Shown here piece by piece: positions 7,273-45,750 of a DNA stretch of 64,000 nucleotides. The stretch is from Mesorhizobium sp. GbtcB19 (lineage in GTDB: Bacteria; Pseudomonadota; Alphaproteobacteria; Rhizobiales; Rhizobiaceae). Both the position numbers and the translations under genes were made by a program. The stretch lies in the NCBI RefSeq assembly GCF_019091085.1, contig NZ_JAGXJY010000023.1, forward strand, positions 1 to 64,000, read 5' to 3'. Every line of letters starts with the position of its first letter. The stretch's first letter is position 1. The notes below the pieces were generated by a model. It was not told the origin of the DNA. It searched no databases and saw only the letters and a list, made by a program, of their open reading frames with translations.

Positions 7273-8310
7273 CTACCGCCGGTCCATGTCGCGCTTGAAC
7301 TGGTCAAAGATCGTCCCGACGTTCTTTTCATATTCGTCGCGCTGCTGCGCGCCGGTCTCGAACATCTTGCCGAAAATATCGTCGAACGGGTTTCGCGGCC
7401 GGCCGCTCGGATTGGTCTGCGGCTGTTGCGGCGCGCTCTGCTGCGGCTGGCGCTGTTGCGGCTGCGGTGACGGCTGCCCGCCGGGCAGGCCGAAACCGCC
7501 GCCGCCCTGGCGCAGCATCTCCTCGAAGATCTTGCCCAGCGGGTTGTCGCCATAGGGGCTTTGCGTCTGTTGGGGCTGCGGCTGCTGCGGCCGGCCTTGC
7601 GGCTGCTGCGGCGCACCGCCACCAAACATATCCTGCAGCACCTTGCCGAGCGGGTTCTCGCCATAGGGATTGGGCGCCTGCTGGGGCTGGCTTTGCGGCT
7701 GCTGAGCGGCGCCGCCGAACATGTCCTGCAGCACCTTGCCGAGAGGATTCTCGCCGTAGGGATTGGGCGCCGGCTGCGGCGCCTGTCGCGTCTGCGGCGC
7801 CGGCGCGACGCCGCTCTGCCGCATCATCTGCTCGATGATCTCGCCGAGCGGATTGCCGCTGCCGCCGAAGCCGCCGGCGGCCTGCATCTGGTTGTTGGTC
7901 TGCTTGAACAGGCCGCCCATCATCATCGAGGCCATGGCCGGCAGCATCTGCTGCAGCACCTGCTGGCTCAGCCCCGTCGCCTGCGCTGCCTGGACCGCCA
8001 CCGCGCGCGACAAGTCTTTCGAGCCGAACAGATGGCCGAGAATGCCGTTGCCCTCATCGATGCCTTGCGGCGAAAAGGCCCGGGTAGCGTCCTCGAAATA
8101 CTTGGCGTGCTGGCCGCTCGCCATCGCCGTCATGAAGGCGCCCATCCCGTAAGGGTCGGCGGTGTTGCGCTGCAGCCCCTGCGAGAAGGCGGGCAAAAGT
8201 GCCTGCACCGCTGCCTGGGTCTGCTGCATCGAAAGCCCATATTGCTGGGCCAGCGCCTGCATGCCGGCGCCGTTCTGGGCTTGGGCAAAAATGTCGAACA
8301 GGGAAGGCAT
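7273..8310 (-). CDS. DUF937 domain protein with repeated NPLG modules
   Basis: A 345-residue cytoplasmic protein. The N-terminal half (about residues 1-135) is a DUF937 domain, a helical Ala/Gln/Met-rich fold also called YidB-like, of unknown function. The C-terminal half is low-complexity Pro/Gln linker carrying five copies of a short helical module of the type NPLGKVLQDMFGG, spaced about 31 residues apart in the central copies; two central copies are identical. The last copy is degenerate (NPFDDIFGKMF). The repeats look like regularly spaced binding modules on a flexible tether. There is no signal peptide. Confidence 0.85.
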   Translation of the reverse strand: MPSLFDIFAQAQNGAGMQALAQQYGLSMQQTQAAVQALLPAFSQGLQRNTADPYGMGAFMTAMASGQHAKYFEDATRAFSPQGIDEGNGILGHLFGSKDLSRAVAVQAAQATGLSQQVLQQMLPAMASMMMGGLFKQTNNQMQAAGGFGGSGNPLGEIIEQMMRQSGVAPAPQTRQAPQPAPNPYGENPLGKVLQDMFGGAAQQPQSQPQQAPNPYGENPLGKVLQDMFGGGAPQQPQGRPQQPQPQQTQSPYGDNPLGKIFEEMLRQGGGGFGLPGGQPSPQPQQRQPQQSAPQQPQTNPSGRPRNPFDDIFGKMFETGAQQRDEYEKNVGTIFDQFKRDMDRR

Positions 8311-8413
8311 AAGGTTTCCTCCGACAATATCCTCGTCGGGGAGCAGCCTATTTCCTTTCTATCATGGATTGAAGCAGCTTTTGCTGACCAACCGCCAGGC
8401 GGATGCCCGACGG

Positions 8414-9787
8414 TTAATAGGCGTACTCCATGAACACCGGCTCGATCGAGCCGCCCCAGCGCGTGTGATAGGCCGACAGCATCTCCTCGGCGCTGGTGGT
8501 GCCGCGCGCCACGACTTCGTCCAGCGTGTTGAGGAACGAGGTCTCGTCATAGCCGTCGCGGTTCTTCTTTCCACGGTTCTTCAGGCCGGTGCGCGCGATC
8601 GCCAGCACGTCGCGGGCGACGTCGCGCAAGGTGGCGTTGCGGAACGGCGCCGCAATGCCTTGCTCCGGCACGGCGTTGCGCATCGCCAGCGCTTCCTTGT
8701 AAGTCCAGCTCGAAGTCAGCGCCTCGGCGGCGTCCAGCGCCTGCTCGTCGTAAAGCAGCCCGACCCAGAAGGCGGGCAGGGCGCAGATGCGCCGCCACGG
8801 CCCGCCATCGGCGCCGCGCATTTCGAGGAAGCGCTTCAGCCGCACGTCGGGAAACAAGGTCGACAGATGGTTCGCCCAGTCGCCCATCTCCGGCAATCCA
8901 TCCGGAACTTCGTCGCGCGCGGCACCCGCCATGAACTGGCGGAAGGTGTAGCGCGTCATATCGTGATACTGGCCGTCGCGGATGACGAAATACATCGGCA
9001 CGTCGAGCGCCCATTCGACATAGTCGGCGAAACCGAAATCGGGCGAGAAACAGAATTCGAGCATGCCGGAGCGCTGGTTGTCGGTGTCGCGCCAGATGTC
9101 GCCGCGCCAGCTCTGCAGCCCGTTCGGCCGGCTCTCGGTGAAGGGCGAATTGGCGAACAGCGCCGTCGACAGCGGCTGCAGCTTCAGCGACACCTGCATC
9201 TTGCGGCGCATGTCGGCTTCGCTCTCGAAGTCGAGGTTAACCTGGATCGTGCAGGTGCGGTACATCATGTCGAGGCCCTTGGTGCCGACCTTCGGCATGT
9301 AGCGCGTCATGATCTCGTAGCGCGACTTCGGCATTTTCGGCGTCTCGGCCAGCGACCATTTCGGGCTGCCGCCGAGGCCGAGGAAGCGGATGCCCATCGG
9401 CTCGGCGATCTCGCGCACCTGCGCCAGATGCGCGTTGCCCTCGCGGCAGGTTTGATGGATCGACTCCAGCGGCGCGCCGGAAAGCTCGAACTGGCCGCCC
9501 GGCTCCAGCGAGATCGCGCCCTGTCCGGTCGGCTCGACCAGACCGATGATGCGGCCCGCATCCATGATCGGATCCCAGCCGAGCTTTTGCTGCATGCCCT
9601 CGAGGATGGCGCGGATGCCACGCTCGCCGCCATAGGGCACCGGCGCGTTGCCGTCGACATAGAAGGGGAATTTCTCGTGCTCGGTGCCGATGCGCCATTT
9701 GTCGCGCGGTTTGTTGCCGGCGGCCAGATAGCCGACCAGTTCGTCGATGCCTTCGATGGGCTGGGTGTCGGTCGTGTCGCGCGCCAT
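8414..9787 (-). CDS. gshA: Glutamate-cysteine ligase
   Basis: A 457-residue GCS2-family glutamate-cysteine ligase, the first enzyme of glutathione synthesis, which joins cysteine to the gamma-carboxylate of glutamate using ATP. It is the plant/alphaproteobacterial type, seen in WRIGTEHEKFPF (about 31-42), LVEPTGQGAISLEPGGQFEL and MYRTCTIQVNLDFE. The length is normal for this type (about 455). A good ribosome-binding site (GGAGGGG) precedes the ATG at 9787. It is transcribed downstream of rsmE on the same strand but separated by 205 bases and a terminator, so it probably has its own promoter. Confidence 0.95.
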   Translation of the reverse strand: MARDTTDTQPIEGIDELVGYLAAGNKPRDKWRIGTEHEKFPFYVDGNAPVPYGGERGIRAILEGMQQKLGWDPIMDAGRIIGLVEPTGQGAISLEPGGQFELSGAPLESIHQTCREGNAHLAQVREIAEPMGIRFLGLGGSPKWSLAETPKMPKSRYEIMTRYMPKVGTKGLDMMYRTCTIQVNLDFESEADMRRKMQVSLKLQPLSTALFANSPFTESRPNGLQSWRGDIWRDTDNQRSGMLEFCFSPDFGFADYVEWALDVPMYFVIRDGQYHDMTRYTFRQFMAGAARDEVPDGLPEMGDWANHLSTLFPDVRLKRFLEMRGADGGPWRRICALPAFWVGLLYDEQALDAAEALTSSWTYKEALAMRNAVPEQGIAAPFRNATLRDVARDVLAIARTGLKNRGKKNRDGYDETSFLNTLDEVVARGTTSAEEMLSAYHTRWGGSIEPVFMEYAY

Positions 9788-9956
9788 GAGGCCCCTCCGA
9801 GCGCATTGCCCCGGAAATCGGCACCGACTTCCTCAAGGCGTCCTGCACAGAAACGTAAATGTTACAGCGCCCTTCGTGCGTCGAAAAGCATGCGCGGTGC
9901 TGCAGAGGCCGGACGGCCGCCGGCGCTAGATGGACGAAATGTTAGCAGCCGATCAA

Positions 9957-10836: not shown

Positions 10837-10860
10837 CAATGGGCGAGGCGGTGGCTTCCG

Positions 10861-11523
10861 TCAAATATCGGCGGTCGGATGCCAGACCGGCGCAAAACCT
10901 TGCCGCAGCACCGCAATGCTGGTCGCCGGCGTCAGCCGACGCAGCAACAAGCCGGCTAGGCGATCGAAGCCAACAGGATCGGCGTAGCCTGCGAACGACC
11001 ATCGAAGCGCTTTGCCCGAACGCAGCGCATAGGCAGTGTCGCCATCCGCGATCATCGCTCCATCAGGCAAGTCGCCAAGCTCGGATATGATCAGGGCAGG
11101 AGGCCGTCCGCCTGAAGCCAGCCGCTCCTTGTGCAGCCGCTTGTCGACCATCGGCGCGCGCGGTTCGGCAATGCCGAAGGCCTCACCGAAGCGGCCGACG
11201 AAATCGGTTGCTCGCTCGCGCTGGCAGAAGAAGCAGGGCCGGTGGCCGGCGGCGAAAGCCGTCACCTCGTCGAGGAAGAACAACTCGGTCCATCCGGCTT
11301 TTCCGCCCATTTGATCAGCGCCTTGCCGGTTGCGGCCCATCGGCTCGCGCCGAACATTGCGGAATTGGCAGACGCAGATGATCCAGGCCGGCAGCGCCCA
11401 GCGCTTCTTCAGCAGCGTTTTCGTCTCGGGGTCGTGGATGATGCCGCGATTGCCGGTGAACAGGCCGCGTTCAGGCACGGCGTGGATGGCGCCGAACGGA
11501 TCGACCCGGTTCTGCAGTGGCAT
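10861..11523 (-). CDS. Conserved-looking protein of unknown function with a CxxC motif
   Basis: A 220-residue protein that I do not recognise as a named family. It starts MPLQNRVDPFGAIHAVPERG and has a CFFCQRERA motif near residue 103, which could bind a metal or form a disulfide, within a His/Cys/Arg-rich central region. There is no signal peptide or membrane segment. The ATG at 11523 has a strong GGGAGAG ribosome-binding site; the longer frame to 11568 does not. It is divergent from the glutamine amidotransferase gene at 11610, sharing an 86-base promoter region. Codon use and GC match the neighbours, so it looks like a real gene. Confidence 0.75.
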   Translation of the reverse strand: MPLQNRVDPFGAIHAVPERGLFTGNRGIIHDPETKTLLKKRWALPAWIICVCQFRNVRREPMGRNRQGADQMGGKAGWTELFFLDEVTAFAAGHRPCFFCQRERATDFVGRFGEAFGIAEPRAPMVDKRLHKERLASGGRPPALIISELGDLPDGAMIADGDTAYALRSGKALRWSFAGYADPVGFDRLAGLLLRRLTPATSIAVLRQGFAPVWHPTADI

Positions 11524-11609
11524 AGTTTTCTCTCCCGCCGCGCATCTTGGCTGAATTGCCGGCCGCATGATATCGCTCGCCCCAGCGTTTTCATGTCAGC
11601 AGGTTTTCG

Positions 11610-12308
11610 ATGCGGGTTTTGGTCGTCCAGAATTTCGACAATGAGGGCCTTGGCCAGATCGGCGCGGCCCTTGTGGAAGCCGGCGCCGATATCGACCTGC
11701 GTAAGCCTTATCAGGGCGAAACGCTGCCGCAGGACAGCAGCGAGCACGACGCTATGGTCATGCTTGGCGGCGCCCAGAACGCGCTCGACGACGAGAACTG
11801 CCCGTATTTTCCCGCATTGCTCGATCTGACGCGCGACTTCGCCGACAAGGATCGCTCGGTGCTCGGCATCTGCCTCGGCAGCCAGCTTCTGGCGCGCGCC
11901 TTCGGCGGCACGAACCAGATCGGCGGCGCCACCGAGTTCGGCTGGCACAAAGTGTCGCTGACGCCGGATGCTAAGTCGGATCCGGTGCTGGGCGCCTTGC
12001 CCGAAAGCTTCCCCATTTTCGAATGGCATGACGATACGTTCGGCCTGCCGGAAAACGCCGTGCGGCTGGCCGGCAGCGCGGTCGCCGAAAACCAGGCCTT
12101 CCGCCTCGGCCGCGCCGCCTATGGCTTCCAGTTCCATTTCGAGGTGGACAGCCCGATGGCGCGCGATTGGAGCACCTGTTTCGCATCGCTCATCGCCGAG
12201 CGCCATCCAGATTGGGCCGGCAAGCTCGATGACGAGATAGCGCGCAACGGGCCCGATGCCGACGCCGCCGGCCTGGCGATAGCCCGCGCCTGGGTGGCGA
12301 CTATCTAG
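11610..12308 (+). CDS. Class I glutamine amidotransferase-like protein
   Basis: A 232-residue stand-alone class I glutamine amidotransferase domain, the type often labelled GMP synthase-like. The catalytic triad can be read: Cys88 in LGICLGSQLLA, His176 and Glu178 in YGFQFHFEVD. No synthetase domain is fused or adjacent, so it may be a gamma-glutamyl hydrolase or transferase rather than an ammonia donor for GMP synthase; the true guaA is at 49384. It is divergent from the unknown gene at 10861-11523. Its substrate is unknown. Confidence 0.88.
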   Translation: MRVLVVQNFDNEGLGQIGAALVEAGADIDLRKPYQGETLPQDSSEHDAMVMLGGAQNALDDENCPYFPALLDLTRDFADKDRSVLGICLGSQLLARAFGGTNQIGGATEFGWHKVSLTPDAKSDPVLGALPESFPIFEWHDDTFGLPENAVRLAGSAVAENQAFRLGRAAYGFQFHFEVDSPMARDWSTCFASLIAERHPDWAGKLDDEIARNGPDADAAGLAIARAWVATI

Positions 12309-12594
12309 CAGTTCGAACCCATCGCTGAACGAGGCGTGGCATAATTGGCACGGCTCCGCGCTTCCGCCTGGGGATAATACTCTTCTTCCTTGGTTTGTGT
12401 CCGGTCGCTCGCCTAAGAGGGCGCGCTTTGTATCGTCGGTGCAACCGCCATGAACCTTTTGTGTGATCCAGCCGACACACCGGCGATACGGAATCTGCTT
12501 AGAAGCGTGAAATCGTCGAAACATTGAGACGCATTTTATCGTTTCAACGCATTGGTAACCGCCTCGTGCCCAGATGCAGAAAGCTTAACCAGAG

Positions 12595-31267: not shown

Positions 31268-31405
31268 GAAGGGGCATGTCGATTTTGTCGCAGCGCTGAA
31301 TGCAGCCAACGTCGCAACCTTGCGGCGTTGCCGGTAGCTGCGGATTGACGTTGTTTGAAGGCGCCGGGCGGCGGCGTTGCCGGCCGGGCGGCGTTTGGGG
31401 CTTCA

Positions 31406-32509
31406 ATGACTGGTTTCGCACGGTCGGTAACTTCCTACACGATGCCATTGGCCGCCTTGGCGATGGCCGTCGCGGTCAGAGCCAGCGGCCTTTCGGTGGA
31501 CGAAGGCTCGCTGAACGTCAGGGTTCTTGTCGGAGCGCTTTCGAGCGCGATCATGTTCATCACCATTTTCGTGGTGCTCGACCACGCCGAGGCGGTTGCC
31601 CGGCGCGTAGGGGAGCCATACGGAACATTGGTGCTGACCTTTGCCGTGACGGCAATCGAAGTGTCGATCATCGTTTCCATGATGCTGCATGGAGCGAACA
31701 ACCCGACATTGGCGCGTGAGTCCGTTTTCTCGACCGTGATGATTACCTCCACCGGCGTTGTCGGCATGTGTCTCGCGCTTGGCGGCTGGCGTCATCGCAA
31801 GCAGGCAATCGTTCGGCAGGGGACCAGCGCATATCTGGCTGTTCTGATTGCGCTGACCGTCATGATCCTGATCCTGCCGACCTATACCCAAACCACTGAC
31901 CCCGGCACGTTTTCGGCGGCTCAGCTTGGTTTTGTAAGCACGCTTTCAGTGGTCCTTTATGCAAGTTTCGTCTTTGCCCAGACCGTCCGGCACCGTGAAG
32001 ACTTCGTCGAAGGACAGGCACGCGAAGTGCCGATGCGATCTGCCTCTCACGAAAGTGTTTCTGTCGCTGCCCTGCTGCTGTTGAGCGGGCTGATAGGAAT
32101 TGTCATGCTTGCCGAGCAGGTCGCCGCAAGCGTCGAGGATACGCTCGTGGCTTACCAGGTCTCCCAGGCCGACAGTATTGTGGGGGCGTTGATCGCGGGG
32201 CTGGTTCTGATGCCGGAAGCCATTTCGGCGGTTCGCGCCTCGCTCAACAATGAGCTGCAGCGCGGCTTGAACGTGGCGATGGGTTCGGCTTGCGCCACGA
32301 TCGGCCTGACGATACCGGCGGTCGCGGCCGCCAGCCTGCTGACGGGCAGGGGGCTGACCTTGGGCGTTCCGTCGGCCGATGCGGTCCTTTTGGTCTTGGC
32401 GCTCCTGATATGCAACGTAAGCTTCAGCACCGAGAGAACGACATTCCTGACAGGCATGGTCCATATCGTGGTGTTCTTTACCTACGTCTTTCTGACATTT
32501 GTGCCGTGA
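31406..32509 (+). CDS. Ca2+/H+ antiporter family protein (ChaA-like)
   Basis: A 367-residue polytopic membrane protein of the CaCA superfamily. The alpha-1 repeat is VLTFAVTAIEVSIIVSMML (about residues 77-95), with the acidic GxxEV core; the alpha-2 repeat is SIVGALIAGLVLMPEAISAV. About eleven hydrophobic segments are visible. It resembles ChaA, which exports Ca2+, Na+ or K+ for protons at alkaline pH. I start at ATG 31406; the frame extends to 31355 but that adds a Gly-rich stretch. There is no operon partner apart from the poly-gamma-glutamate hydrolase-like gene 123 bases downstream. Confidence 0.88.
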   Translation: MTGFARSVTSYTMPLAALAMAVAVRASGLSVDEGSLNVRVLVGALSSAIMFITIFVVLDHAEAVARRVGEPYGTLVLTFAVTAIEVSIIVSMMLHGANNPTLARESVFSTVMITSTGVVGMCLALGGWRHRKQAIVRQGTSAYLAVLIALTVMILILPTYTQTTDPGTFSAAQLGFVSTLSVVLYASFVFAQTVRHREDFVEGQAREVPMRSASHESVSVAALLLLSGLIGIVMLAEQVAASVEDTLVAYQVSQADSIVGALIAGLVLMPEAISAVRASLNNELQRGLNVAMGSACATIGLTIPAVAAASLLTGRGLTLGVPSADAVLLVLALLICNVSFSTERTTFLTGMVHIVVFFTYVFLTFVP

Positions 32510-32632
32510 CGGCTGGCGATCGGATGCGGTGATAAACCGGGCTGTGGTACAGAGACGGCGTGGATCGGGATTGAAATGCCTTCGCAACGAGTCGGAGGGC
32601 GCGATCGCCAGGCACGCGTATTGGATGGGGTT

Positions 32633-33256
32633 ATGGACAACGAGTTCCCGAATTTCGCGGCGCTGAGGGCCGCCAAAACCGAAAACGTCGACTATCGCAT
32701 CGTCGTGCGGCGCGGCGCGCGAACCGGCAATGCGATTGTCATGGCTCCCCATGGCGGGAAAATCGAACCCCGCACATCCCTGATCACCGAGACGATAGCG
32801 GGGCCCGATCTCGATATGTATTGCTTTGAAGGCCTCATGCCGGAAAGCAACCGGGAGCTCCACATAACATCCAGGAACTTCGACGAGGGGACCGCGCTGG
32901 ACCTGTTGCGGACGAAGTCCACCGTCGTCGCTATCCACGGCCGTCAGGACCGCGACGATCCCTCGACAATCTACATGGGCGGCAAGGACGCCGCGTTGGT
33001 TTCAGAAATAGCCTGGCGTCTGCAGGAGGCCGGCTTCGAGACGCAAAAGGATAACCATCCGTTTCCCGGTGTCCAGGATTTGAACATCGTCAACCGAGGT
33101 CTGACGGGGAAAGGAGCGCAGCTGGAAATACCTTTCTCGCTGCGCCGTCGAATCGGCAACGAGCCGGACCTTCTGGAAAAATTCTGTGGGGCGGTTCGCA
33201 AGGCGATCGATGCATTCGACGCCCGAAATGGCGTTCAATCCTGGGCCGTGTCCTAG
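32633..33256 (+). CDS. Poly-gamma-glutamate hydrolase family protein
   Basis: A 207-residue protein of the PF05908 family, zinc-dependent peptidase-like enzymes first known from phages that cut poly-gamma-glutamate. Marks include VMAPHGGKIEPRTS (near residue 36), DMYCFEGLMPESNRELHITS, and VVAIHGRQDRDDPSTIYMGG, with the conserved His and Glu residues present. The C-terminal NRGLTGKGAQLEIPFSLR also fits. No signal peptide is seen, so it should act in the cytoplasm or after lysis. ATG 32633 is chosen; the frame opens earlier without a ribosome-binding site. It may be a phage-derived gene kept in the chromosome. Confidence 0.8.
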   Translation: MDNEFPNFAALRAAKTENVDYRIVVRRGARTGNAIVMAPHGGKIEPRTSLITETIAGPDLDMYCFEGLMPESNRELHITSRNFDEGTALDLLRTKSTVVAIHGRQDRDDPSTIYMGGKDAALVSEIAWRLQEAGFETQKDNHPFPGVQDLNIVNRGLTGKGAQLEIPFSLRRRIGNEPDLLEKFCGAVRKAIDAFDARNGVQSWAVS

Positions 33257-33329: not shown

Positions 33330-34190
33330 ATGTCGTCGTGGTCGATGAAGGGTCTGTGGCCGCGGCAAGCGGGGGCGAGTGCTGAGAGTGGCGACGCAAC
33401 CCCCCGGCCGGCGGAACTGCCCATTCCGCCGTTTGAGATGCGGCAACTGGTCGGCCCGACCGACCCGCAGATGTTCGACAATCCACGCCGCGCGCCTGTC
33501 TTTGCCGGCCTGCCGGACGCCGCCTATGACAATGTCTTCGACTTCGGCTCGGGCTGCGGCCGGCTTGCCAGGCAGATGATGCAGCAGTCGCCGCTGCCGG
33601 CGAAATACCGGGGTATCGACCTGCACGAAGGCATGGTGAGATGGTGCCAGGAGAATTTGACGCCGGCCAACCCCGATTTCACCTTCGCGCATCACAACAT
33701 CTTCAATCCCGGCTTCAATCCCGACCCGTCCCTGCCGCGCTTCGCCCCGTTCCCGATCGAGGACGGCGCCGCGACGTTGATGATTGCCTGGTCGGTCTTC
33801 ACCCACACCACCCAGCGGCAGACCGAGCACTATATCAACGAGACGGCGCGGGTCCTTCATGATCGCGGAACTCTCGTCTCGACCTGGTTCCTGTTCGAGA
33901 AGCGGAATTTCCCGATGATGCAGGATTTCCAGAACGCGCTGTATATCAACGAGTTCGACCCGACGAATGCGACCATCTTCGACCGGACCTGGTTGGTGGA
34001 CTTGCTTGCGAGCGCCGGCCTCCAGGTGACGCTGGCAAAGCCACCGGCGATCAGGGGCTTTCAATGGGTGCTTCACATCCGGAAGAAGGGACAGGGCGAG
34101 CCGGTTGAACTCGGCGAAGACCTTGCGCCCTACGGCAAGATGCCGCCGCCGGTTCTCACCCAGGACCCGTCGAAGATCGGACGTTCTTGA
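33330..34190 (+). CDS. SAM-dependent class I methyltransferase
   Basis: A 286-residue methyltransferase. The SAM-binding motif I is VFDFGSGCGRLARQM (about 68-82), followed by GIDLHEGMV and SVFTHTT for motif IV-like and DRGTLVSTWF. The C-terminal part has no known domain. A GGAG site precedes the ATG. It is the first gene of the glycan-associated region and is convergent with the GT2 gene, so it may modify a sugar or lipid; the substrate is unknown. Confidence 0.82.
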   Translation: MSSWSMKGLWPRQAGASAESGDATPRPAELPIPPFEMRQLVGPTDPQMFDNPRRAPVFAGLPDAAYDNVFDFGSGCGRLARQMMQQSPLPAKYRGIDLHEGMVRWCQENLTPANPDFTFAHHNIFNPGFNPDPSLPRFAPFPIEDGAATLMIAWSVFTHTTQRQTEHYINETARVLHDRGTLVSTWFLFEKRNFPMMQDFQNALYINEFDPTNATIFDRTWLVDLLASAGLQVTLAKPPAIRGFQWVLHIRKKGQGEPVELGEDLAPYGKMPPPVLTQDPSKIGRS

Positions 34191-34218: not shown

Positions 34219-35013
34219 TCAGGCGGAAACGCGGAACCGGATCAGATACCAGAGTGCCTTGATCCCGTCGCGCCAGCCGATTTTCTTGCCCTCGTCATAG
34301 GTTCGGCCGTAATAGCTGATGCCGACCTCATAGATGCGCAGGCCGCCGGCGCGCGCGATCTGCGCGCTCATTTGTATCTCGCAGCCGAAATCATCGCAGG
34401 TGAGGCTGAGCCGCTCTTTGATGGCGCGGGTGAACATTTTGTAGCAGCATTCGATGTCGGTGAGCGTCTGGTTGTAGAGCAGGTTGAACGTCAGCGAGAT
34501 GAACCTGTTTGCCACATAGTGGTGGAAGTAGAGGGACCGGTGCGGCCGGCCATAGAAGCGCGAGCCATAGACCACATCGGCCACTTTGCGCCTGGCGATG
34601 AGATCGTACATGACCGTCCAGTCGGCGGGATCATATTCGAGATCGGCGTCCTGGATGACGATCACGTCGCCGCTCGCGGCAGCAAGTCCGGTGCGCAGCG
34701 CGGCGCCCTTGCCGCTGTTTTTCTGATGGTAGGCCGGTCGAATGATGGTGCTGCCCGACGGCTGGGTCTTGGCGACGACGAGGTCCTGATCATCTGCGAT
34801 GACGAGGTTATTGTGCGCGTCGACGCTGATGGTGCCGCCCGAACGCGGACCGTCCGGAAAGTTGGCCTGCAACCATTCCCGGGTTCCGTCGGTCGACCCG
34901 TCGTCGACGACGATGATTTCCTTGTCGACGCCAGGCAGCGCTTTGCTGACCATGGCGAGCACGCTCGGAAGGGTTGCCACCTCGTTGAAGACCGGGACGA
35001 TGATCGAAAGCAT
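34219..35013 (-). CDS. GT2 glycosyltransferase, polyprenyl-phosphate hexose synthase-like
   Basis: A 264-residue GT2 enzyme of the dolichyl-phosphate mannose/glucose synthase type. The start LSIIVPVFNEVATLPSVLAM and IIVVDDGSTDGT are typical; QKNSGKGAALRTGLAAASGD and VIVIQDADLEYDP contain the DxD metal site. No C-terminal membrane anchor is seen, as in single-domain members. It likely makes a polyprenyl-phosphate-linked sugar at the inner face of the membrane for the GT-C-like neighbour. It is the last gene of a three-gene operon, 31 bases after the UbiA gene. Confidence 0.9.
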   Translation of the reverse strand: MLSIIVPVFNEVATLPSVLAMVSKALPGVDKEIIVVDDGSTDGTREWLQANFPDGPRSGGTISVDAHNNLVIADDQDLVVAKTQPSGSTIIRPAYHQKNSGKGAALRTGLAAASGDVIVIQDADLEYDPADWTVMYDLIARRKVADVVYGSRFYGRPHRSLYFHHYVANRFISLTFNLLYNQTLTDIECCYKMFTRAIKERLSLTCDDFGCEIQMSAQIARAGGLRIYEVGISYYGRTYDEGKKIGWRDGIKALWYLIRFRVSA

Positions 35014-35044: not shown

Positions 35045-35965
35045 TTATAGTGCCGACAGCGATGCCAGCGTGGCCACGACCGTCACGATGCCTATGATTG
35101 CATAAAGCACGCGGTAGCAGCGTTGCAGGGCGACCAGGCTTTCAAAGCTGAGGCCGGCTCGCAGCGCCCGCAACGAGGCCGTGAGATGCAGCGGATAGAG
35201 CAGCGCGGCCAGCATCAGCACGCGCGGAACCAAGCCGTAAAACGCAAGGCCGACCAGCAGGACATAGGCCGCCGTAAAGAGCGCCAGGCCGGCAAAGAAA
35301 CCTTGCGCCTTGCCGAAGGCGACCGCGTTGGTCCGGATCCCGTTGAGCGTGTCGCCCGCGTGGTCGCGGGCCTCATGGGTGAAATGCCCGGCGGTGAAGA
35401 CGAGCGCGAAGAATAAGCTGACGAGGAGGCCGCGCACGTCGATTGCCGAGAAGGCCGCGTAGCCGAGGAGAAAATGCAGCGCGCCGCCCGAAAGGTGAAG
35501 CGCCGAGCTGAAAATCGGCGTGCCCTTGAGGTGGAGGCCGGGCGCCGAATAAAGCGCGCTCAGGCCGGCTATGGCCAGTCCGACGAAGAACGGTGTCTCG
35601 CCGACCATCGCGAACAGCAACAGGCTGAGCGCCAGCAGCGAAATCGCGAGATATCCGACCTCGCTTCGCGAAAGGCCTTTTGCGGCAAACGTGCCCGCCG
35701 CCCGCTTGGGATCGTTGACGTCGCCGTCGATGCCGGACCAGTCGTTGAACAGAAAGACATGCGCGACTAGGCACAGATTGCCGGCGATGACGAAAGCAAC
35801 ATCCAGCATGTTGTTCATCGTCAGGGCGCCGATCGAAAGCACCGCACCGATCAGCGGTGTGCCCTGAAGCGCGCAGACTTCGTCGAAACGGATGCTCGAC
35901 AACAGGCGAGGCCACGATCGTATCGATCTGGGACGGATCGCGACTGCCGGTTCGAGCGGTGTCAT
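35045..35965 (-). CDS. UbiA family prenyltransferase
   Basis: A 306-residue polytopic membrane protein of the UbiA superfamily, which transfers prenyl chains to acceptors such as aromatics or sugar phosphates. The first Asp motif reads FNDWSGIDGDVNDPKR (Asn74, Asp75, Asp80, Asp82) and the second is HEARDHAGD with the two Asp residues near 210. About eight to nine hydrophobic helices are present. The start at 35965 is set by the ATGA overlap with the upstream gene. The subgroup is unclear: it could make a polyprenyl-phosphate sugar (as in DPPR synthase) or prenylate an aromatic. It is translationally coupled to the GT-C/toroid gene. Confidence 0.88.
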   Translation of the reverse strand: MTPLEPAVAIRPRSIRSWPRLLSSIRFDEVCALQGTPLIGAVLSIGALTMNNMLDVAFVIAGNLCLVAHVFLFNDWSGIDGDVNDPKRAAGTFAAKGLSRSEVGYLAISLLALSLLLFAMVGETPFFVGLAIAGLSALYSAPGLHLKGTPIFSSALHLSGGALHFLLGYAAFSAIDVRGLLVSLFFALVFTAGHFTHEARDHAGDTLNGIRTNAVAFGKAQGFFAGLALFTAAYVLLVGLAFYGLVPRVLMLAALLYPLHLTASLRALRAGLSFESLVALQRCYRVLYAIIGIVTVVATLASLSAL

Positions 35966-38703
35966 ATCTCTCCACATTTCTGGCCGGGGCCGCTGGGGCG
36001 GCACGACAGCGTTGTCTGCCCCGACTGACTGGCGAAGTAAAGCCTCAGCCAGAGCGCATAGCCGAGTTCCTGTGACCAGTAGAATCGCCGGACCGTGGCG
36101 CTCAGATCGTTGTGATAGAACAGCGGCGGCGCGCTGTTGAGCAAGGAAAAATCGTTCTCGGCGATCTTGCCGAGAATTTGGGCCGTCTCCAGGCGGCTTT
36201 GGCCCGTGGCGTCGCCGTTCTCCGTTTGGCCAAGCAGTTCGGCCGCCCGGATCCAGATATCCTGCCCGGGCACCGTGCTCTGCAGCCGCGATGGCGCAAT
36301 CCTCAGCTTGCAGCCGGCCTTGCGCAGATCCGCGAGTCGCAAGGCGAGAAGAAGCGGCGCCTTGGCGTAGTAGACCCAGACGTCGTCGTCATCCGCCTTG
36401 CGCGCCATCGCTTCGCACAGCGCCCGCGCCGCTGCCGGATCTTGCCCGGCGAGCAGCATATAGACATGCATCTGGATGCCGAAATCGGCCGGGTTCGGAT
36501 CCTTGCCTGGATCGAGGCATTGGTAGCGCTCACGCGGCGCGAGCCAGGTCCGGTAAAGGCCGTCTGGCCTTTTATACTGGTCGAGGGTGGCCAGCGCCTT
36601 CGACAGCAACTCCGTTTGCTTGCCGGGCGCGGCTCGCCAGACCAGAGCCGTGTCGTCGGCATCGGGAGTGATGGCGCAGCCGAGCTTTCCGATCGTCGGC
36701 GCGTCGGGCCGGCCGTGGTACCGGACCAGACCGTCGGGCTCGATCTGGTCGCTCAGGTAGCGGCGCACCCGCGCCAGCTGATCCTCCATCCCGGCCTCTT
36801 TCGCCACCGGCGTCATGACGTCGAGGATCAAACTGTTCAGATATGTGTTCAGCTCCGGATGCGGCTTGGCGAACTCCAGGCCGCTGGTGAAGGACGTCAG
36901 CCAGTAGCCCGGCGCCTGCAGGCGTCCGGCCAAAGCCTGCTCCGCCTCGAGCGCGACATTCATCAGCTGCGCATCCGGCGCCAGGGTGAACCTGCGCTCG
37001 ATGAGCAGCCGCGGCACGCTGCCGGGCTGCGCGCGGACGCGCGCCGTCAGGACATGCTTGCCAGGTCCCAGTTGATCGGCGGGGAAGGCGATACGCCAGC
37101 CCGCTGGATTTGAGCTTCCAAGCGCCTTGACGACGTCGCTGCGCTCGAAAAACGTGACCGCGCCGCCCATCGGTTGGCCATCCACCGACACCGCGACGTC
37201 CAGCGGCGTTTTCCTGTCGACGAGCGCCCAGCCGAGGACTTCGACCTGGCGCGCCGCCGCCGCGGTGCTGCCTTCGGGTGCCGGCACCCCGACAACATTG
37301 ACCTGGTCGACGCTGCCGGCGAGCTCGGCGAAGAGATCCATCGGAGCCGGCGGATGTCTCAGTTCGGCGATGAAGGCGGCGTTGTTGATGTCCCAGGCGG
37401 GCCGCATCCTGTCCGGGCCGGCAGCAGCCAGCAGCACGTTGTCGGAGGCGCCGGTGTACCAGAACGCGCCGATGGCCTGGATGCCGATTGCCACGCCGCC
37501 GGCCAGCGCGAACACCGCCCGGCCTCTTGATGACAGCGCCGCCAGCACCGGCGGCAGCATCCATATCAGCATCGGAATGAAATCGGTGAGCCAGCGCGGC
37601 CCCCACGACACACCCTGCCGCCAGTCGACAAGAGCATAGAGCACCACCTGCACAACGATGGCGCAAAGCATCGCGATGGTGAGGCCGCGCATCTTCGCAT
37701 CGCGCAGGATCGGCATCAGGAAGAGAGGCACGAACAGCAGAAACGGCGAGAAGACGAAGAGGCCGCGCATCGGGCTGAACAGCAGGCCGGCGATGCCTTC
37801 GATCACATTGTCGTTGTAGTCGTGGGATCGATCGACGAGGGCATAGGCGCCGGCGATATTGCCGACGACCTGCAGATTGTAGGCGACGACCAGCACAACC
37901 GGGATCAGGCCCGTGATCACGAACAGCGGAATTCTGCGCCCGGCCCACCAGAGGCCATAGAGCCCGAGGCTTGCCGCCAGAACGGCATCGGGTTGGCGGT
38001 TCACCGCGATGAGGGCGCAAAAGAAGCCCGCCGTGGCAGCGCGCGCCGGGCTGCATCGCCCGGTGATCAGCAGCATCGTCGCGATGACCAGCAACTCAGC
38101 CAGCCCATGCATCCAGAGCGCCTGGCTGCTGATCACCCAGGTCGTCGTGCCGAAGGCGTAGAGCAGGGTGAGAAGCGCGGCAATTCGCGGCGTGCTGCGC
38201 CGTCGCAGCAAGAGGTAGAAAAGCGCCACCGATGCGGCCGCGAGCAGCGACGCGCAAAGCTTCTCCATGACCCGCGCGACCCGGTCGAGCAGCAGCGGAT
38301 TCCAGTTTCTCGCTTCGAGGTATTTGACGACAGGCAGGTAGGCCGGCGCGATCGCCACCGGAACCGCGAGAGGATATTGCGAGACGAAATGACCGTCACG
38401 CCCCTTTAAGATCCAATACGCGCTGCTGCCCTTGCCTTGAATCGCCGGTGGTTGGCGGCCCTGCGCGACGACGTCGACGATGGGATCGAGGAGAAGGCTG
38501 TGGTTGCGCCAGATCGAGAACGGCAGATAGCGCGCGGCATATGTGTCGCCCGCCGGGATCGACCGCATATTGGCGTTGAAGACAACGAAGGCGGCAAGCC
38601 CAAGCAGGATTGCGATGGCGAAATCCCTGAGCGTGCTGCGCTGAGGATCCCCCGGTGATTGTTCTTGCCCCGGCGCACGGGCCGAACGTGCTTCGGTTGG
38701 CAA
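35962..38703 (-). CDS. Large membrane protein: GT-C-like domain plus C-terminal alpha/alpha-toroid-like domain with DxDDTA
   Basis: A 913-residue protein. Residues about 25-430 hold some eleven to twelve transmembrane segments with the layout of GT-C enzymes (ArnT/PMT-like), including a polar loop after the first helix (AGDTYAARYLPF, 51-62) and WGPRWL at 367-372. Residues about 440-570 look like a beta-rich linker. Residues about 580-913 are a soluble alpha-helical domain, probably periplasmic, containing PDADDTALVW (680-689), the DxDDTA signature known from class II terpene cyclases. Only one toroid is present, so cyclase activity is not established. It begins the operon with UbiA and GT2. 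Confidence 0.75.
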   Translation of the reverse strand: MPTEARSARAPGQEQSPGDPQRSTLRDFAIAILLGLAAFVVFNANMRSIPAGDTYAARYLPFSIWRNHSLLLDPIVDVVAQGRQPPAIQGKGSSAYWILKGRDGHFVSQYPLAVPVAIAPAYLPVVKYLEARNWNPLLLDRVARVMEKLCASLLAAASVALFYLLLRRRSTPRIAALLTLLYAFGTTTWVISSQALWMHGLAELLVIATMLLITGRCSPARAATAGFFCALIAVNRQPDAVLAASLGLYGLWWAGRRIPLFVITGLIPVVLVVAYNLQVVGNIAGAYALVDRSHDYNDNVIEGIAGLLFSPMRGLFVFSPFLLFVPLFLMPILRDAKMRGLTIAMLCAIVVQVVLYALVDWRQGVSWGPRWLTDFIPMLIWMLPPVLAALSSRGRAVFALAGGVAIGIQAIGAFWYTGASDNVLLAAAGPDRMRPAWDINNAAFIAELRHPPAPMDLFAELAGSVDQVNVVGVPAPEGSTAAAARQVEVLGWALVDRKTPLDVAVSVDGQPMGGAVTFFERSDVVKALGSSNPAGWRIAFPADQLGPGKHVLTARVRAQPGSVPRLLIERRFTLAPDAQLMNVALEAEQALAGRLQAPGYWLTSFTSGLEFAKPHPELNTYLNSLILDVMTPVAKEAGMEDQLARVRRYLSDQIEPDGLVRYHGRPDAPTIGKLGCAITPDADDTALVWRAAPGKQTELLSKALATLDQYKRPDGLYRTWLAPRERYQCLDPGKDPNPADFGIQMHVYMLLAGQDPAAARALCEAMARKADDDDVWVYYAKAPLLLALRLADLRKAGCKLRIAPSRLQSTVPGQDIWIRAAELLGQTENGDATGQSRLETAQILGKIAENDFSLLNSAPPLFYHNDLSATVRRFYWSQELGYALWLRLYFASQSGQTTLSCRPSGPGQKCGEI

Positions 38704-38947
38704 TGCCCTGACCCCGTACCGTGCGATGTCGCAGCCGACCTATATCGGCGCGGCTCATATGCTTCAACAGCCGTTTCCATGCATTAACAAAAGACTGTTT
38801 GCCGGATCCTTCGCGGACCTGCGGAGCCCGACGGGCGTCGCTGTCGCCAACCTCACCGTCAGTGCCGGCAAGACGAACAAAACAAATTGTTCAAACGGCC
38901 TTTATCTGTCTTGCAGCCTGGGCGGTTTGTCGCGAAGTGGAGAGACT

Positions 38948-39769
38948 ATGAGCGACCAGAGCACCACGCGGGCCGGTTTGCCAACGCGCGGCACCTACGA
39001 TGGCCGGCGCGTGAACCTGTTTGGCGTCGGCCCGCCCCGCACGGCCACCACCAGCCTCGCCATGATGCTGGCCGCGACGGGAAAGGTCTTTGTTCCGGAC
39101 GGCAAGGAGGTCAACGGCTTCGGCATCACGCCCGAGCTGACGCAAACGCTCTACGATCTGCGTTTCGCCGAGGCGCGCGAAAAGCATCGCTACATTGCCG
39201 ACTTCTCACCGGTCTATCTGTCGGATGCTGAGGTGCCCTCGCGCATCAAGTCATACAATCCAGACGCCAGGATCATCGCCACGCTGCGCGAACCCGTAGC
39301 GCGCATGCTTTCGCAATACGCCCACATGCGGCAGACGAAAGACCCTTCGCTGGATATCGATCTTCGTCTCGACGTGAACGCTTACATCAGGAAAGGCCTG
39401 TCCGATCTGCAGGCCGGCCCCTTGGAGCCCTATCGCTGGTATTCCGCGGCGCTGAACATGACGCACTCCTTCTATGGGCGGAATCTCGAACGCTATTTCG
39501 CGTGCTTTTCCCGCAAGCGCATCCTGGTTCTGGTCTATGAGGATTTGCTGCAACCTCGCCGGTTGTGGCGAAGAGACCGATGGGAGAGAGGCCTGCGGTC
39601 GTTCCTCGGCGTCGCGATCGGCCGGCGGGTATGGGAAAACCAGGTGGCGGATGAGCCGTTGACGGTCGAGCCGGAGCTCAATGCCGAGCTGAGAGCGCTT
39701 TTTGCCCCGGAGGTGAAGGCCGCGGGAAAACTGATCGGACGCGACCTGTCGGCCCTTTGGGGGTATTGA
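38948..39769 (+). CDS. Sulfotransferase
   Basis: A 273-residue PAPS-dependent sulfotransferase. The 5'-phosphosulfate loop is FGVGPPRTATTSLAMML (near residues 25-41) and the 3'-phosphate site is REPVARMLSQYAH. The rest fits the Sulfotransfer_1/3 families, which transfer sulfate to sugars or lipids. It starts at ATG 38948 with GGAGAG just upstream; the longer frame to 38726 has no comparable site. It is divergent from the GT-C-like operon and 131 bases before the GT8/GT4 protein, so it probably decorates the same product. Confidence 0.85.
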   Translation: MSDQSTTRAGLPTRGTYDGRRVNLFGVGPPRTATTSLAMMLAATGKVFVPDGKEVNGFGITPELTQTLYDLRFAEAREKHRYIADFSPVYLSDAEVPSRIKSYNPDARIIATLREPVARMLSQYAHMRQTKDPSLDIDLRLDVNAYIRKGLSDLQAGPLEPYRWYSAALNMTHSFYGRNLERYFACFSRKRILVLVYEDLLQPRRLWRRDRWERGLRSFLGVAIGRRVWENQVADEPLTVEPELNAELRALFAPEVKAAGKLIGRDLSALWGY

Positions 39770-39900
39770 GAGGGTGGCCGCGAGCCGGCCGGAAACCAGT
39801 CGGGCGACGGTCAAGCTTGCCTTTGGCGCATCGATATGATCTCAGGTCCGGCTTGCACTGCGGACCGCGAGTCAAAGGCGGACTGGGACCTGGAGTTGGT

Positions 39901-42453
39901 GTGGCAAGGACCGCGTTTTTCACGATCTCGTCCTGGAATTATCTGCACTATGCGCGCGCGCTTGCCTCGTCCCTGGCCGCATATCATCCGGACGTCGCGC
40001 GCATAATCGCCGTCGCCGATACAAGGCGCGACGACCTGACCGGCGGCGATTTCCCCGAATTCGACGAATGCGTCTTCTTCGACGATCTCGACCTGCCGGA
40101 TCGCCGGGCCTTCAGCTTCCGCTACGATGTCATGGAGTTGAACACGGCGATCAAGCCGACAGTGTTTAGCCGGCTGTTTGCCGAGGGATATGATCGGGTC
40201 ATCTATCTCGATCCCGATATCATAGCCTACCGCCGGTTCGACGAGCTGTTCGATGTTCTCGACGGCGGCGCGTCGTCGGTTCTCACGCCGCACGCGCTGG
40301 CACCGAATTTGCATCCGGACAGCCCGAACGATCTGACGTTCATGCAAGCCGGCGTCTACAATCTGGGCTTCATGGCGCTCGCCAACACGCCCGAGACGCT
40401 TCGATTGCTGAAGTGGTGGGAAACACGTCTGCGCACCGAATGCGTCTCCAACCGGGTTGCCGACGGCCTTTTCGTCGACCAGAAATTCGTCGACCTCTGG
40501 CCGGCCTATTGCCCGGGAACGGCCATTCTGCGCAATCCGGCCTACAATGTGGCGTATTGGAACCTCGACAGCCGCCCTGTCAGACGGCGCGGCGATGCCT
40601 ATGAGGTCGACGGCGTGGCGCTCGCTTTTTTCCATTTCAGCGGCGTGGTCCCCGGGGACCGGTCGATCCTGTCGAAACACCAGCGACGGTGGAAACCCGG
40701 CAGCACCCCTGAACTGCGGGCTCTTTTCGACGACTATCATGATCGTCTCGAGCAATTCGGGCTGCGGCGGTTCTCGAGCATCCCCTACGGCTTCGGAACC
40801 TTCAGCAACGGGACCCGCATTCCGGATGTGGCCAGGCGCCATTTTCGCGAGCGGCTGGAACCCTTTTCCGGCGATCCGTTCGCGGATTTGCCCGCCTATC
40901 TCAACCGTCCGGCGCAGCTTGATCCGAATCCCGACGGGGTCGTCACGCGATTTGCCCACGCGCTCTGGATGACACGGTCCGATCTACAGACCCATTTCGA
41001 CTTGCGGGGAAGCCACTCGCAGCTGAGCTACGTGCAGTGGTTCGCTTCCGGGGGTGCCGAGGAGGCGAAAATCCCCGCGGAATTCATACGGCCTGTCGCC
41101 AAAAGAATTTCCGATCTCGGGGCACAGGTCAGGAAACGTTCACGCAGCTCGAAGCTCACGGCCGCCGCCGCGCGGTTCGCCTATCGGCTGCTGATGAAAG
41201 TTCAGCCCAACATCAGATGGTTCTACCTGCTGATCCCGCCGGCGCGGCGAAAGCGTTTTCTGGATGCCTTGTTCAGGAGCGCCTGGCCCGCCGCCTATGG
41301 CGGCGGATCGTTGCCGCTCAGTCATGGCGTCTCGCTCATCGGCTATCCGTTCGCCGAGATCGGCGTTGGCGAGGCCATGCGCTCGCTTGCCCGCTCGATC
41401 GAGAGCGCCGACGTCAGCTATGAAGTCGTGAACTTCGACGAGCAGGTGCGTTCCTCGCAGAAGGATCGCGCGCTCGAGGAGCGGCTCACCGAGACGCCGT
41501 CGAAAACGGTCAACATCTTTTGCGTCAATGCCGATATGCTGGGGTCGACGGTTCGCGGCGTGGGCAGCGCCGCGCTCCATAACCGCTACAACATCCTGCG
41601 TCCGTTCTGGGAACTGCCGCGCATCCATCCGCAATGGATCGACGGCCTCAGGCAGGTCGACGAAATCTGGGCGCCGACGGCCTTCGTGCGGGATGCGTTT
41701 GCCGCCGAGACCGATCGTCCGGTGATCCATATGCCGGTGTCGATTTCGGTGCCGTCCGACGTGCAGCCGAACAGGCGCCGCTTCGGCATTCCGAATGAAG
41801 CGACCGCTTTTCTGTTCGCGTTCGACTTTTCTTCCTACCCGACCCGCAAGAACCCTCAGGCCGTTTTGGAAGCCTATCTGCGCGCGTTCGGGCAGGACAG
41901 GAAGCGCAACGTTTCCCTCCTCATCAAGACGATGGGCCGAAGCGCCGATAAGGTCGAGGTGCTGAATTCCGTGCGGCGCCTGGCGCGGGACGACCGCAGG
42001 ATCGTCCTGATCGACGATGTCCTGAGCCGGGCCGACATGCACGGCCTCACCGCGTCTTGCGACGTCTTCATCTCCTTGCACCGTTCGGAAGGCTTCGGCC
42101 TGGGCATCGCCGAAGCAATGGCCTTGGGCAAGGCGGTCATCGCCACGGATTTCTCGGGCAGCAGGGATTTCGTGAGCGGCGCAACCGGCTTTCCCGTCCC
42201 CTACAGGCTGATCGACGTCGAACCGGATCAATATCCGTATTTCGTCGAGGGACAGAAATGGGCCGAACCCGACATCGACGCGGCCGCGCGCATCATGGCC
42301 TCGCTTGCCGACGACCGCGACATGGCAAGGGCCGTGGGCAGCGCGGCGAAGTCGTTCATCGAGAATTTTCACAGCCCGCAGGCCGTAGGCCGGATCGCGG
42401 ACACCAGGCTGAAACAGATCTATGGGCACCGCAATGCGCTGATCGGGCGGTGA
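39901..42453 (+). CDS. Two-domain glycosyltransferase (GT-A-like plus GT4)
   Basis: An 850-residue protein with two catalytic domains. The N-terminal half (about 1-330) is a GT8-like GT-A domain, with ISSWNYLHYARALASSL near the start and YLDPDI at 102-107 as the DxD site. The C-terminal half (about 465-850) is a GT-B GT4 domain, with GVSLIGYPFAEIGVGEAMRS, the polyglycine-type loop, and the nucleotide-sugar E-x7-E motif in SEGFGLGIAEAMALGKAVIA (about 728-747). Such fusions add two sugars in turn. The start is GTG 39901, with GGAG at 39892-39895; the frame runs back to 39757 but overlaps the sulfotransferase. Confidence 0.85.
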   Translation: MARTAFFTISSWNYLHYARALASSLAAYHPDVARIIAVADTRRDDLTGGDFPEFDECVFFDDLDLPDRRAFSFRYDVMELNTAIKPTVFSRLFAEGYDRVIYLDPDIIAYRRFDELFDVLDGGASSVLTPHALAPNLHPDSPNDLTFMQAGVYNLGFMALANTPETLRLLKWWETRLRTECVSNRVADGLFVDQKFVDLWPAYCPGTAILRNPAYNVAYWNLDSRPVRRRGDAYEVDGVALAFFHFSGVVPGDRSILSKHQRRWKPGSTPELRALFDDYHDRLEQFGLRRFSSIPYGFGTFSNGTRIPDVARRHFRERLEPFSGDPFADLPAYLNRPAQLDPNPDGVVTRFAHALWMTRSDLQTHFDLRGSHSQLSYVQWFASGGAEEAKIPAEFIRPVAKRISDLGAQVRKRSRSSKLTAAAARFAYRLLMKVQPNIRWFYLLIPPARRKRFLDALFRSAWPAAYGGGSLPLSHGVSLIGYPFAEIGVGEAMRSLARSIESADVSYEVVNFDEQVRSSQKDRALEERLTETPSKTVNIFCVNADMLGSTVRGVGSAALHNRYNILRPFWELPRIHPQWIDGLRQVDEIWAPTAFVRDAFAAETDRPVIHMPVSISVPSDVQPNRRRFGIPNEATAFLFAFDFSSYPTRKNPQAVLEAYLRAFGQDRKRNVSLLIKTMGRSADKVEVLNSVRRLARDDRRIVLIDDVLSRADMHGLTASCDVFISLHRSEGFGLGIAEAMALGKAVIATDFSGSRDFVSGATGFPVPYRLIDVEPDQYPYFVEGQKWAEPDIDAAARIMASLADDRDMARAVGSAAKSFIENFHSPQAVGRIADTRLKQIYGHRNALIGR

Positions 42454-42466
42454 GAGCTGCTGTGCC

Positions 42467-45750
<3,284 letters not shown>

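Follow-up and report, generated by a model that had tools for sequence, protein, structure and literature searches.

The window analysed here is a stretch of 64,000 nucleotides from the soil bacterium Mesorhizobium sp. GbtcB19 (contig NZ_JAGXJY010000023.1, positions 1 to 64,000). On its minus strand lies a fusion gene whose predicted product consists of a GT-C-type membrane glycosyltransferase domain, a β-sandwich linker and a C-terminal single α/α barrel (toroid) resembling class II terpene cyclases (Table 1). A gene for a UbiA-family prenyltransferase follows directly, and a GT2 glycosyltransferase gene lies farther downstream. An earlier reading made from the letters of the window (the sequence-only reading) had placed a PDADDTALVW string (residues 680–689) in a helical C-terminal part, and had described a four-base overlap with UbiA and a downstream GT2 gene; the 913-codon translation, an AlphaFold2 model that shows helices, and the gene coordinates, including an ATGA common to both overlapping genes, agree with these points. 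All conservation and neighbour counts given below are based on 16 distinct loci, the window included (locus L038 was left out as a duplicate of L002).

Table 1. Positions of the fusion gene, its domains and candidate functional residues, and the neighbouring genes (window coordinates).
Feature	Positions	Strand	Basis or remarks
Whole fusion gene	35962..38703	minus	913 codons, TTG start; GT-C and toroid joined in this way in 15 of 16 loci, counting the window
GT-C glycosyltransferase membrane domain, residues 1–455, about 11 transmembrane helices, N-terminus in, C-terminus out	37339..38703	minus	Predicted fold, loop charges
Asp53, first outside loop, candidate GT-C catalytic residue	38545..38547	minus	Invariant in 15 of 15 GT-C halves
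FnIII-like β-sandwich linker, residues 460–569	36997..37326	minus	Weak fold matches, Z about 7
Class II terpene cyclase-like single α/α barrel, residues 570–913	35965..36996	minus	AlphaFold2 model and fold searches
DADDTA, residues 681–686, candidate proton-donor motif; D683 candidate acid	36646..36663	minus	Conserved in 16 of 16
Tyr778–Tyr779, candidate acid-activating tyrosines	36367..36372	minus	16 of 16; compare AsDMS D333 with Y426/Y427
Span of four invariant cysteines (676, 729, 763, 798), candidate disulfides	36310..36678	minus	16 of 16
ATGA overlap, fusion stop / UbiA start	35962..35965	minus	Sequence
UbiA-family membrane prenyltransferase	35045..35965	minus	PF01040, 67.3 bits versus cut-off 34.2
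GT2, candidate polyprenyl-phosphate-sugar synthase	34219..35013	minus	PF00535, E 1.1e-28; best NCBIfam model AglJ, below cut-off
Sulfotransferase, accessory, true start probably later	38726..39769	plus	PF13469
Two-domain GT8/GT4-like glycosyltransferase, accessory	39757..42453	plus	PF13692, PF00534; GT8 match below cut-off

The AlphaFold2 model of the toroid, built from a 16-sequence input, has a mean predicted local distance difference test (pLDDT) score of 83.4 and a predicted template modelling (pTM) score of 0.85; model residues 97–108, directly preceding the motif, are poorly modelled. In a Foldseek search of the PDB, ranks 1–13 are all class II terpene cyclases, with query TM-scores (template modelling scores) of up to 0.62. 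The best match in VIA-align is AsDMS drimenol synthase (Z 24.8, root-mean-square deviation (rmsd) 3.5 over 287 residues), aligned over chain residues 173–536, which cover mostly the TC-β domain but start before it. Further matches include MstE (Z 20.4, rmsd 3.6, 290 residues), squalene-hopene cyclase (SHC) of Archangium (A. gephyra; Z 20.3, rmsd 3.9, 291 residues) and SHC of Alicyclobacillus acidocaldarius (Z 18.7, rmsd 4.0, 286 residues). The first 29 rows hold 28 class II terpene cyclases and one protein without a stated function (6ij1, Actinoplanes, Z 20.2). Helical models can reach Z 14 in VIA-align through common arrangement; for this model the single-barrel cyclases lie well above that level, whereas the other matches do not. 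The sequence-only reading had weighed glycosidase-type toroids as the competing fold: in the searches class II terpene cyclases rank first and glycosidase-type toroids lower, with two-domain diterpene cyclases level with the latter. Its objection that the domain is only half of a two-toroid cyclase falls, given the monodomain cyclase MstE (PMC9401909) and the single TC-β domain of AsDMS (PMC12365925).

Carbohydrate-enzyme toroids begin at Z 16.8 with 3h7l, an endoglucanase-related protein of Vibrio, followed by MmpH (16.6) and a cellobiose 2-epimerase (16.6). These scores, level with those of two-domain diterpene cyclases (16.7–17.0), bear on an alternative in which the barrel is a periplasmic glycan-processing domain (a hydrolase, an epimerase or a binding module) acting on the sugar product of the GT-C half, with DxDDTA serving other chemistry or being convergent. 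Single-barrel terpene cyclases reach Z 20–25 and head both the Foldseek and the VIA-align lists, the motif is invariant and stands at a helix start, and the UbiA gene, which a glycan hydrolase would not need, is found in all 16 loci. The alternative is judged unlikely, even with what speaks for it beyond these scores, namely a domain that is seemingly outside the membrane and fused to a glycosyltransferase, Gmd (GDP-mannose dehydratase), GT4 and sulfotransferase genes close by, and a toroid without a sequence link to cyclases.

D681, D683, D684, T685 and A686 are invariant in 16/16 sequences, and the motif reads PD(A/S)DDTAL, with Ala at residue 682 in 11 and Ser in five; the three aspartates on which the sequence-only reading had hung a cyclase assignment are thus fully conserved, window included. 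Of 200,000 shuffled versions of the window toroid domain, 131 contain the pattern D.DDTA. In the open reading frames themselves (ORFs; at least 150 amino acids long, from the 16 loci and, for the window, from 28–46 kb only), every one of the 16 toroid genes has it a single time, and the remaining 165,254 residues lack it. In toroid model numbering, the motif covers the start of helix 113–122. The aligned columns of Tyr778–Tyr779 are likewise invariant (16/16), as are many aromatic residues of the toroid. A scripted scan places the Tyr-Tyr pair 95–96 residues after D683 in 15 sequences, compared with 93–94 residues in AsDMS, a comparison of colinear spacing and not a superposition; in L005 the scan picked an earlier YY, yet the aligned columns hold YY there also.

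In AsDMS, the corresponding motif occupies residues 331–335, D333 is the proton donor, Y427 activates it, Y426 acts on the diphosphate, and variants of D331, D333, Y426 and Y427 are without activity (PMC9128629, PMC12365925). The acid of the fungal enzyme AstC is D273, held by N324 and Y361 (PMC13244436). The helix position and the Tyr-Tyr spacing of the motif in the modelled toroid agree with those of AsDMS. By predicted fold and motif, the barrel is of the class II terpene cyclase type and lies outside the SHC profile family, and it appears to work like a class II terpene cyclase. A related alternative, that a degenerate cyclase fold serves as a non-catalytic lipid-binding or scaffolding domain presenting a prenyl lipid to the GT-C half, is very improbable: a binding module needs no kept acid, whereas the motif aspartates, the Tyr-Tyr pair and many aromatics are invariant in 16/16. 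It would account for the membrane enzyme to which the toroid is joined in 15/16 loci and for the predicted anchor found instead in L005, and it agrees with the missing sequence-level tie to active cyclases.

The UbiA gene is located directly downstream of the toroid gene in 16/16 loci, so that the check on co-occurrence proposed by the sequence-only reading comes out in its favour, and an in-frame (A/G)TGA stop/start overlap joins the two genes in 15/16 (the exception is L034). Within the genus, nine of 144 genomes have this UbiA, and they are the very nine in which the toroid turned up among 146. The UbiA profile matches in the PDB the UbiA prenyltransferase 4tq3 (expectation value (E) 2.2e-7), which we take to be AfUbiA, and DGGGP synthase (E 8.1e-5); phosphoribosyl enzymes are absent from its matches up to E 10. 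The aligned 4tq3 residues Y139, S140, K146, D198 and D202 agree with the AfUbiA residues described in PMC4106721, and at these positions the Tyr, the Ser, the Lys and both Asp of the second motif, DxxxD, are kept in 16/16. NCBIfam prenyltransferase models match 16/16 members (best E 1.1e-17), and weaker matches to decaprenyl-phosphate phosphoribosyltransferase models are seen in 5 and 3 of the 16 (best E 1.4e-5); for the window UbiA, every listed NCBIfam match is below cut-off.

The phosphoribosyltransferase matches bear on a second alternative, a pentofuranose three-component pathway in which UbiA would be a polyprenyl-phosphate phosphoribosyltransferase, the lipid-linked pentose would be the donor for GT-C, and the toroid would be an accessory module. 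Pairs of GT-C and UbiA enzymes of this kind are known from mycobacterial arabinan and the Citrobacter O-antigen (PMC11127046), and the GT-C fold matches include the arabinosyltransferases AftB and Emb. Phosphoribosyl-type UbiA enzymes have an Arg and a Glu in loop IV and a first motif NDxxDxxxD in loop II (PMC11127046). A corresponding RxxE, looked for as a string in the members' own sequences, is present in six of the 16 members and absent from the window; it is not conserved, whereas DxxxD and the AfUbiA-type Tyr, Ser and Lys are found throughout, and the prenyltransferase models match far better than the phosphoribosyltransferase models. The first-motif Asp lost here is required in those systems too (D251 in the Citrobacter enzyme; PMC11127046), and the toroid is left unexplained. 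The pentofuranose pathway is accordingly improbable, and a prenyl donor, with an unusual metal site, is favoured for UbiA.

The N-terminal half of the fusion protein was modelled weakly (pLDDT 65, pTM 0.63). Its best Foldseek match has E 3.3e-3, with none at E 0.001 or below, and each of the top 26 rows is either a GT-C transferase or a GT-C-like subunit of a complex of such a transferase; VIA-align gives ALG12 (Z 18.3), yeast OST (17.6), AftB (16.6), PglB (15.0) and ArnT (13.5). The NCBIfam LA_3751 family matches the fusion protein with 64.5 bits against a cut-off of 200. The GT-C assignment of the sequence-only reading is in line with these fold searches, made on a low-confidence model, in which the N-terminal half has a GT-C fold. 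D53 is invariant in 15/15 aligned GT-C halves, is placed outside by the topology read from loop charges, and is presumably catalytic, by analogy with GT-C enzymes. The fold and the GT2 neighbour together point to a polyprenyl-phosphate sugar as the substrate of this half. A FnIII-like β sandwich, modelled for the window protein only, seems to join the GT-C membrane domain and the barrel; this linker region is alignable across the 15 fused proteins, and its matches, at Z below 8, may reflect common arrangement alone.

If helix 113–131 is assumed to lie outside without crossing the membrane, loops 168–171, 254–257 and 335–338, which are rich in Arg, fall on the inner side, with the C-terminus and the long loops on the outer side. 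Scripted labels took this helix as spanning, by which the sides are swapped and the Arg-rich loops lie outside, a less likely topology. In every one of the 16 sequences, the toroid core has four cysteines, no more and no fewer, at matching positions, and an additional tail pair is split by lineage (both present in nine, all Mesorhizobium; neither in seven). This pattern fits disulfides in an oxidising compartment, and helix order allows a guess that they are C676–C729 and C763–C798. In the L005 variant, which lacks GT-C, a single N-terminal hydrophobic stretch is preceded by three basic residues and followed by two. A location of the barrel outside the cytoplasmic membrane is suggested by the loop charges and the paired cysteines.

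The predicted barrel fold, the motif, its conservation and the gene linkage are established as described above; from these we infer activity, substrates and order of steps. In the reading that we hold to be somewhat better than even, UbiA prenylates an acceptor, and the fusion protein both closes rings in the prenyl chain and transfers a sugar taken from a polyprenyl-phosphate donor. Prenylation, cyclisation and glycosylation make up the simplest reading in which every conserved part is used. UbiA would join a prenyl diphosphate to an acceptor on the cytoplasmic side, and the membrane-soluble product would reach the outer face. There, D683, activated by Y778 or Y779, would protonate the terminal double bond of the prenyl chain, leading to ring closure, and the GT-C half would add the sugar from a polyprenyl-phosphate donor made by GT2. 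The pathway would thereby yield a prenyl lipid that is cyclised and glycosylated, in some cases with further sulfation and glycosylation by accessory gene products. The fuller proposal, that a terpene cyclase coupled to GT-C works outside the cytoplasmic membrane, cyclising and glycosylating a UbiA-made prenyl lipid on the outer face, is put forward tentatively, at a little less than an even chance. The pairing of a UbiA-like enzyme with an SHC-like cyclase, cited as known by the sequence-only reading, is indeed described for the merosterol pathway (PMC5618424).

Several findings weigh against the reading as prenylation, cyclisation and glycosylation, the main weakness being at the sequence level: hhalign of the toroid against four squalene-hopene cyclases gives a probability of 1.3, with a thin profile (effective number of sequences (Neff) about 2), and the toroid is without a significant Pfam or PDB-sequence match. 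Since hhalign with these cyclases gives no signal, the link of the toroid to cyclases rests on predicted structure, motif and spacing. In fold comparison, the two-domain diterpene cyclases and human oxidosqualene cyclase (Z 15.8) score no higher than the carbohydrate toroids. The placement outside the cytoplasmic membrane hinges on helix 113–131 being non-spanning, and no terpene cyclase known to us acts on the outer side of that membrane. The nearby sulfotransferase, Gmd and GT4 genes would equally fit a plain glycan pathway, and the two trans-prenyl diphosphate synthases of the genome are both encoded on other contigs. The first UbiA motif is NDWxGxxxD, not NDxxDxxxD, in 16/16 members, the middle Asp being replaced by Gly while the Asn, the next Asp and the last Asp are kept. 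The replaced residue corresponds to AfUbiA D72, which binds magnesium and whose mutation abolished binding of geranyl diphosphate (PMC4106721).

Among known systems, the closest parallel is the AsDMS-type HAD–TC-β drimenol synthase (9M7D, 9M7E, 9M7F, 9MHS; PMC9128629, PMC12365925), in which a single class II β barrel is likewise fused to an unrelated enzyme domain. It also shares a DxD(D/T)T motif, a Tyr-Tyr pair about 94 residues past the acid, and the rank of top fold match. The two differ in the partner, which is a HAD-like phosphatase in AsDMS and a GT-C membrane enzyme here, and identity is 12–13%; the paired-cysteine pattern and the probable outside location belong to the Mesorhizobium barrel, and a UbiA partner is unmentioned for AsDMS in the available text of PMC9128629 and PMC12365925. 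MstE merosterolic acid synthase (6SBB–6SBG) is also a monodomain class II cyclase (PMC9401909), and its pathway contains a UbiA-like prenyltransferase (PMC5618424); unlike the fusion protein, it is a stand-alone enzyme in the solved structures, and identity is 13–14%. The pentofuranose three-component systems share a GT-C encoded with a UbiA-family enzyme; there, UbiA is a phosphoribosyltransferase, and a cyclase barrel is unmentioned in the available text (PMC11127046).

ALG12, PglB, ArnT and AftB, GT-C enzymes fed by polyprenyl-phosphate sugars, resemble the N-terminal half in membrane fold. GT-C transferases of this type have an outside active face and depend on a GT2-type donor synthase, and we know of none with a C-terminal cyclase-type barrel, no search for one having been made. 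A search of openly licensed papers returned no class II cyclase fused to a glycosyltransferase or GT-C domain, and none that is periplasmic or outside the membrane. If the proposal holds, terpene ring formation would not be confined to the cytoplasm or the inner leaflet, and a membrane glycosyltransferase can incorporate a cyclase, which would be a novel way of coupling terpenoid and glycan assembly, yielding a new class of bacterial glycolipid. The fusion, UbiA and GT2 would then form a defined operon, in a cultivable genus, testable for a new sugar–terpene lipid. Profile-based genome mining may well miss such clusters because the toroid has no Pfam match over cut-off.

Pfam gives no match over cut-off for the C-terminal 344 residues, for the whole window protein or for the 16 toroids; PF13243 (SQHop_cyclase) has no match in the own genome and none by hmmscan of the 16 members at E up to 1. 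Sequence searches of the PDB return nothing useful with the whole fusion protein and one match only, at E 0.73, with the toroid profile. The window toroid domain is 45–94% identical to the other 15, and a close relative of the locus is L002 of M. hawassense (92% identity). The toroid dN/dS (the ratio of nonsynonymous to synonymous substitution rates) is 0.126 for the window versus L002, 0.179 for L031 versus L032, and 0.217 for L035 versus L036; on these three pairs, the toroid domain is under purifying selection.

The genome samples searched for toroid relatives overlap, so that the following counts cannot be summed. Relatives were found in 9/146 genomes of the genus, 1/297 of the family sample (a single query; the own genome), 2/385 of the class sample and 3/349 of the phylum sample, one of these being dropped as chance. 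Elsewhere, they occur in 6/147 genomes of the family of G897 and 1/303 of its class (G897 itself), and in 1/96 of the order of G300 (G300 itself). The match dropped as chance, in G957 (134 residues, E 6.7e-4), has six internal stop codons. Plasmid searches revealed no relative, nor did a viral contig scan among the 264 stretches matched by pattern.

GT2 and the GT-C fusion are each present in 15/16 loci, with L005 as the exception for both. A sulfotransferase related to that of the window is found in 5/16 loci and relatives of the GT8/GT4-type gene in 11/16 (window included in both), and some loci add Gmd or another nucleotide-sugar epimerase. Because a search of 15–16 kb in L031, L032 and L033 showed no counterpart of either the sulfotransferase or the GT4 gene of the window, the fusion, UbiA and GT2 appear, on gene content, to be the minimal unit. 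The GT8/GT4-like gene is divergent to the fusion gene; its relatives include some from G897's family, which lies beyond the class sample of the window, and some lie within a much longer ORF.

In L005 (genome G300; 8063–9916), the fusion partner of the toroid, in place of GT-C, is a hydrophobic anchor at the N-terminus together with HEAT repeats, and UbiA is directly downstream. The genes upstream are Asn-synthase-like, sugar-transfer-type ATP-grasp, HPr-kinase-like and short sulfotransferase genes. A downstream membrane protein (10845–12491) was considered as a GT-C homologue and dropped, as hhalign with the GT-C profile gave no signal. In the window, a methyltransferase-like gene (33330–34190) stands beside GT2; among the loci compared, only L002 has a counterpart. 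The flanks (31355–33256 and 42467–45750), in which antiporter-like, DUF, LysR-type regulator and catalase-peroxidase genes were recognised by eye, are partly common to L002, L031, L032 and L033. Because of these partly common flanking genes, the operon seems to occupy the same place in the chromosome in the four loci and the window.

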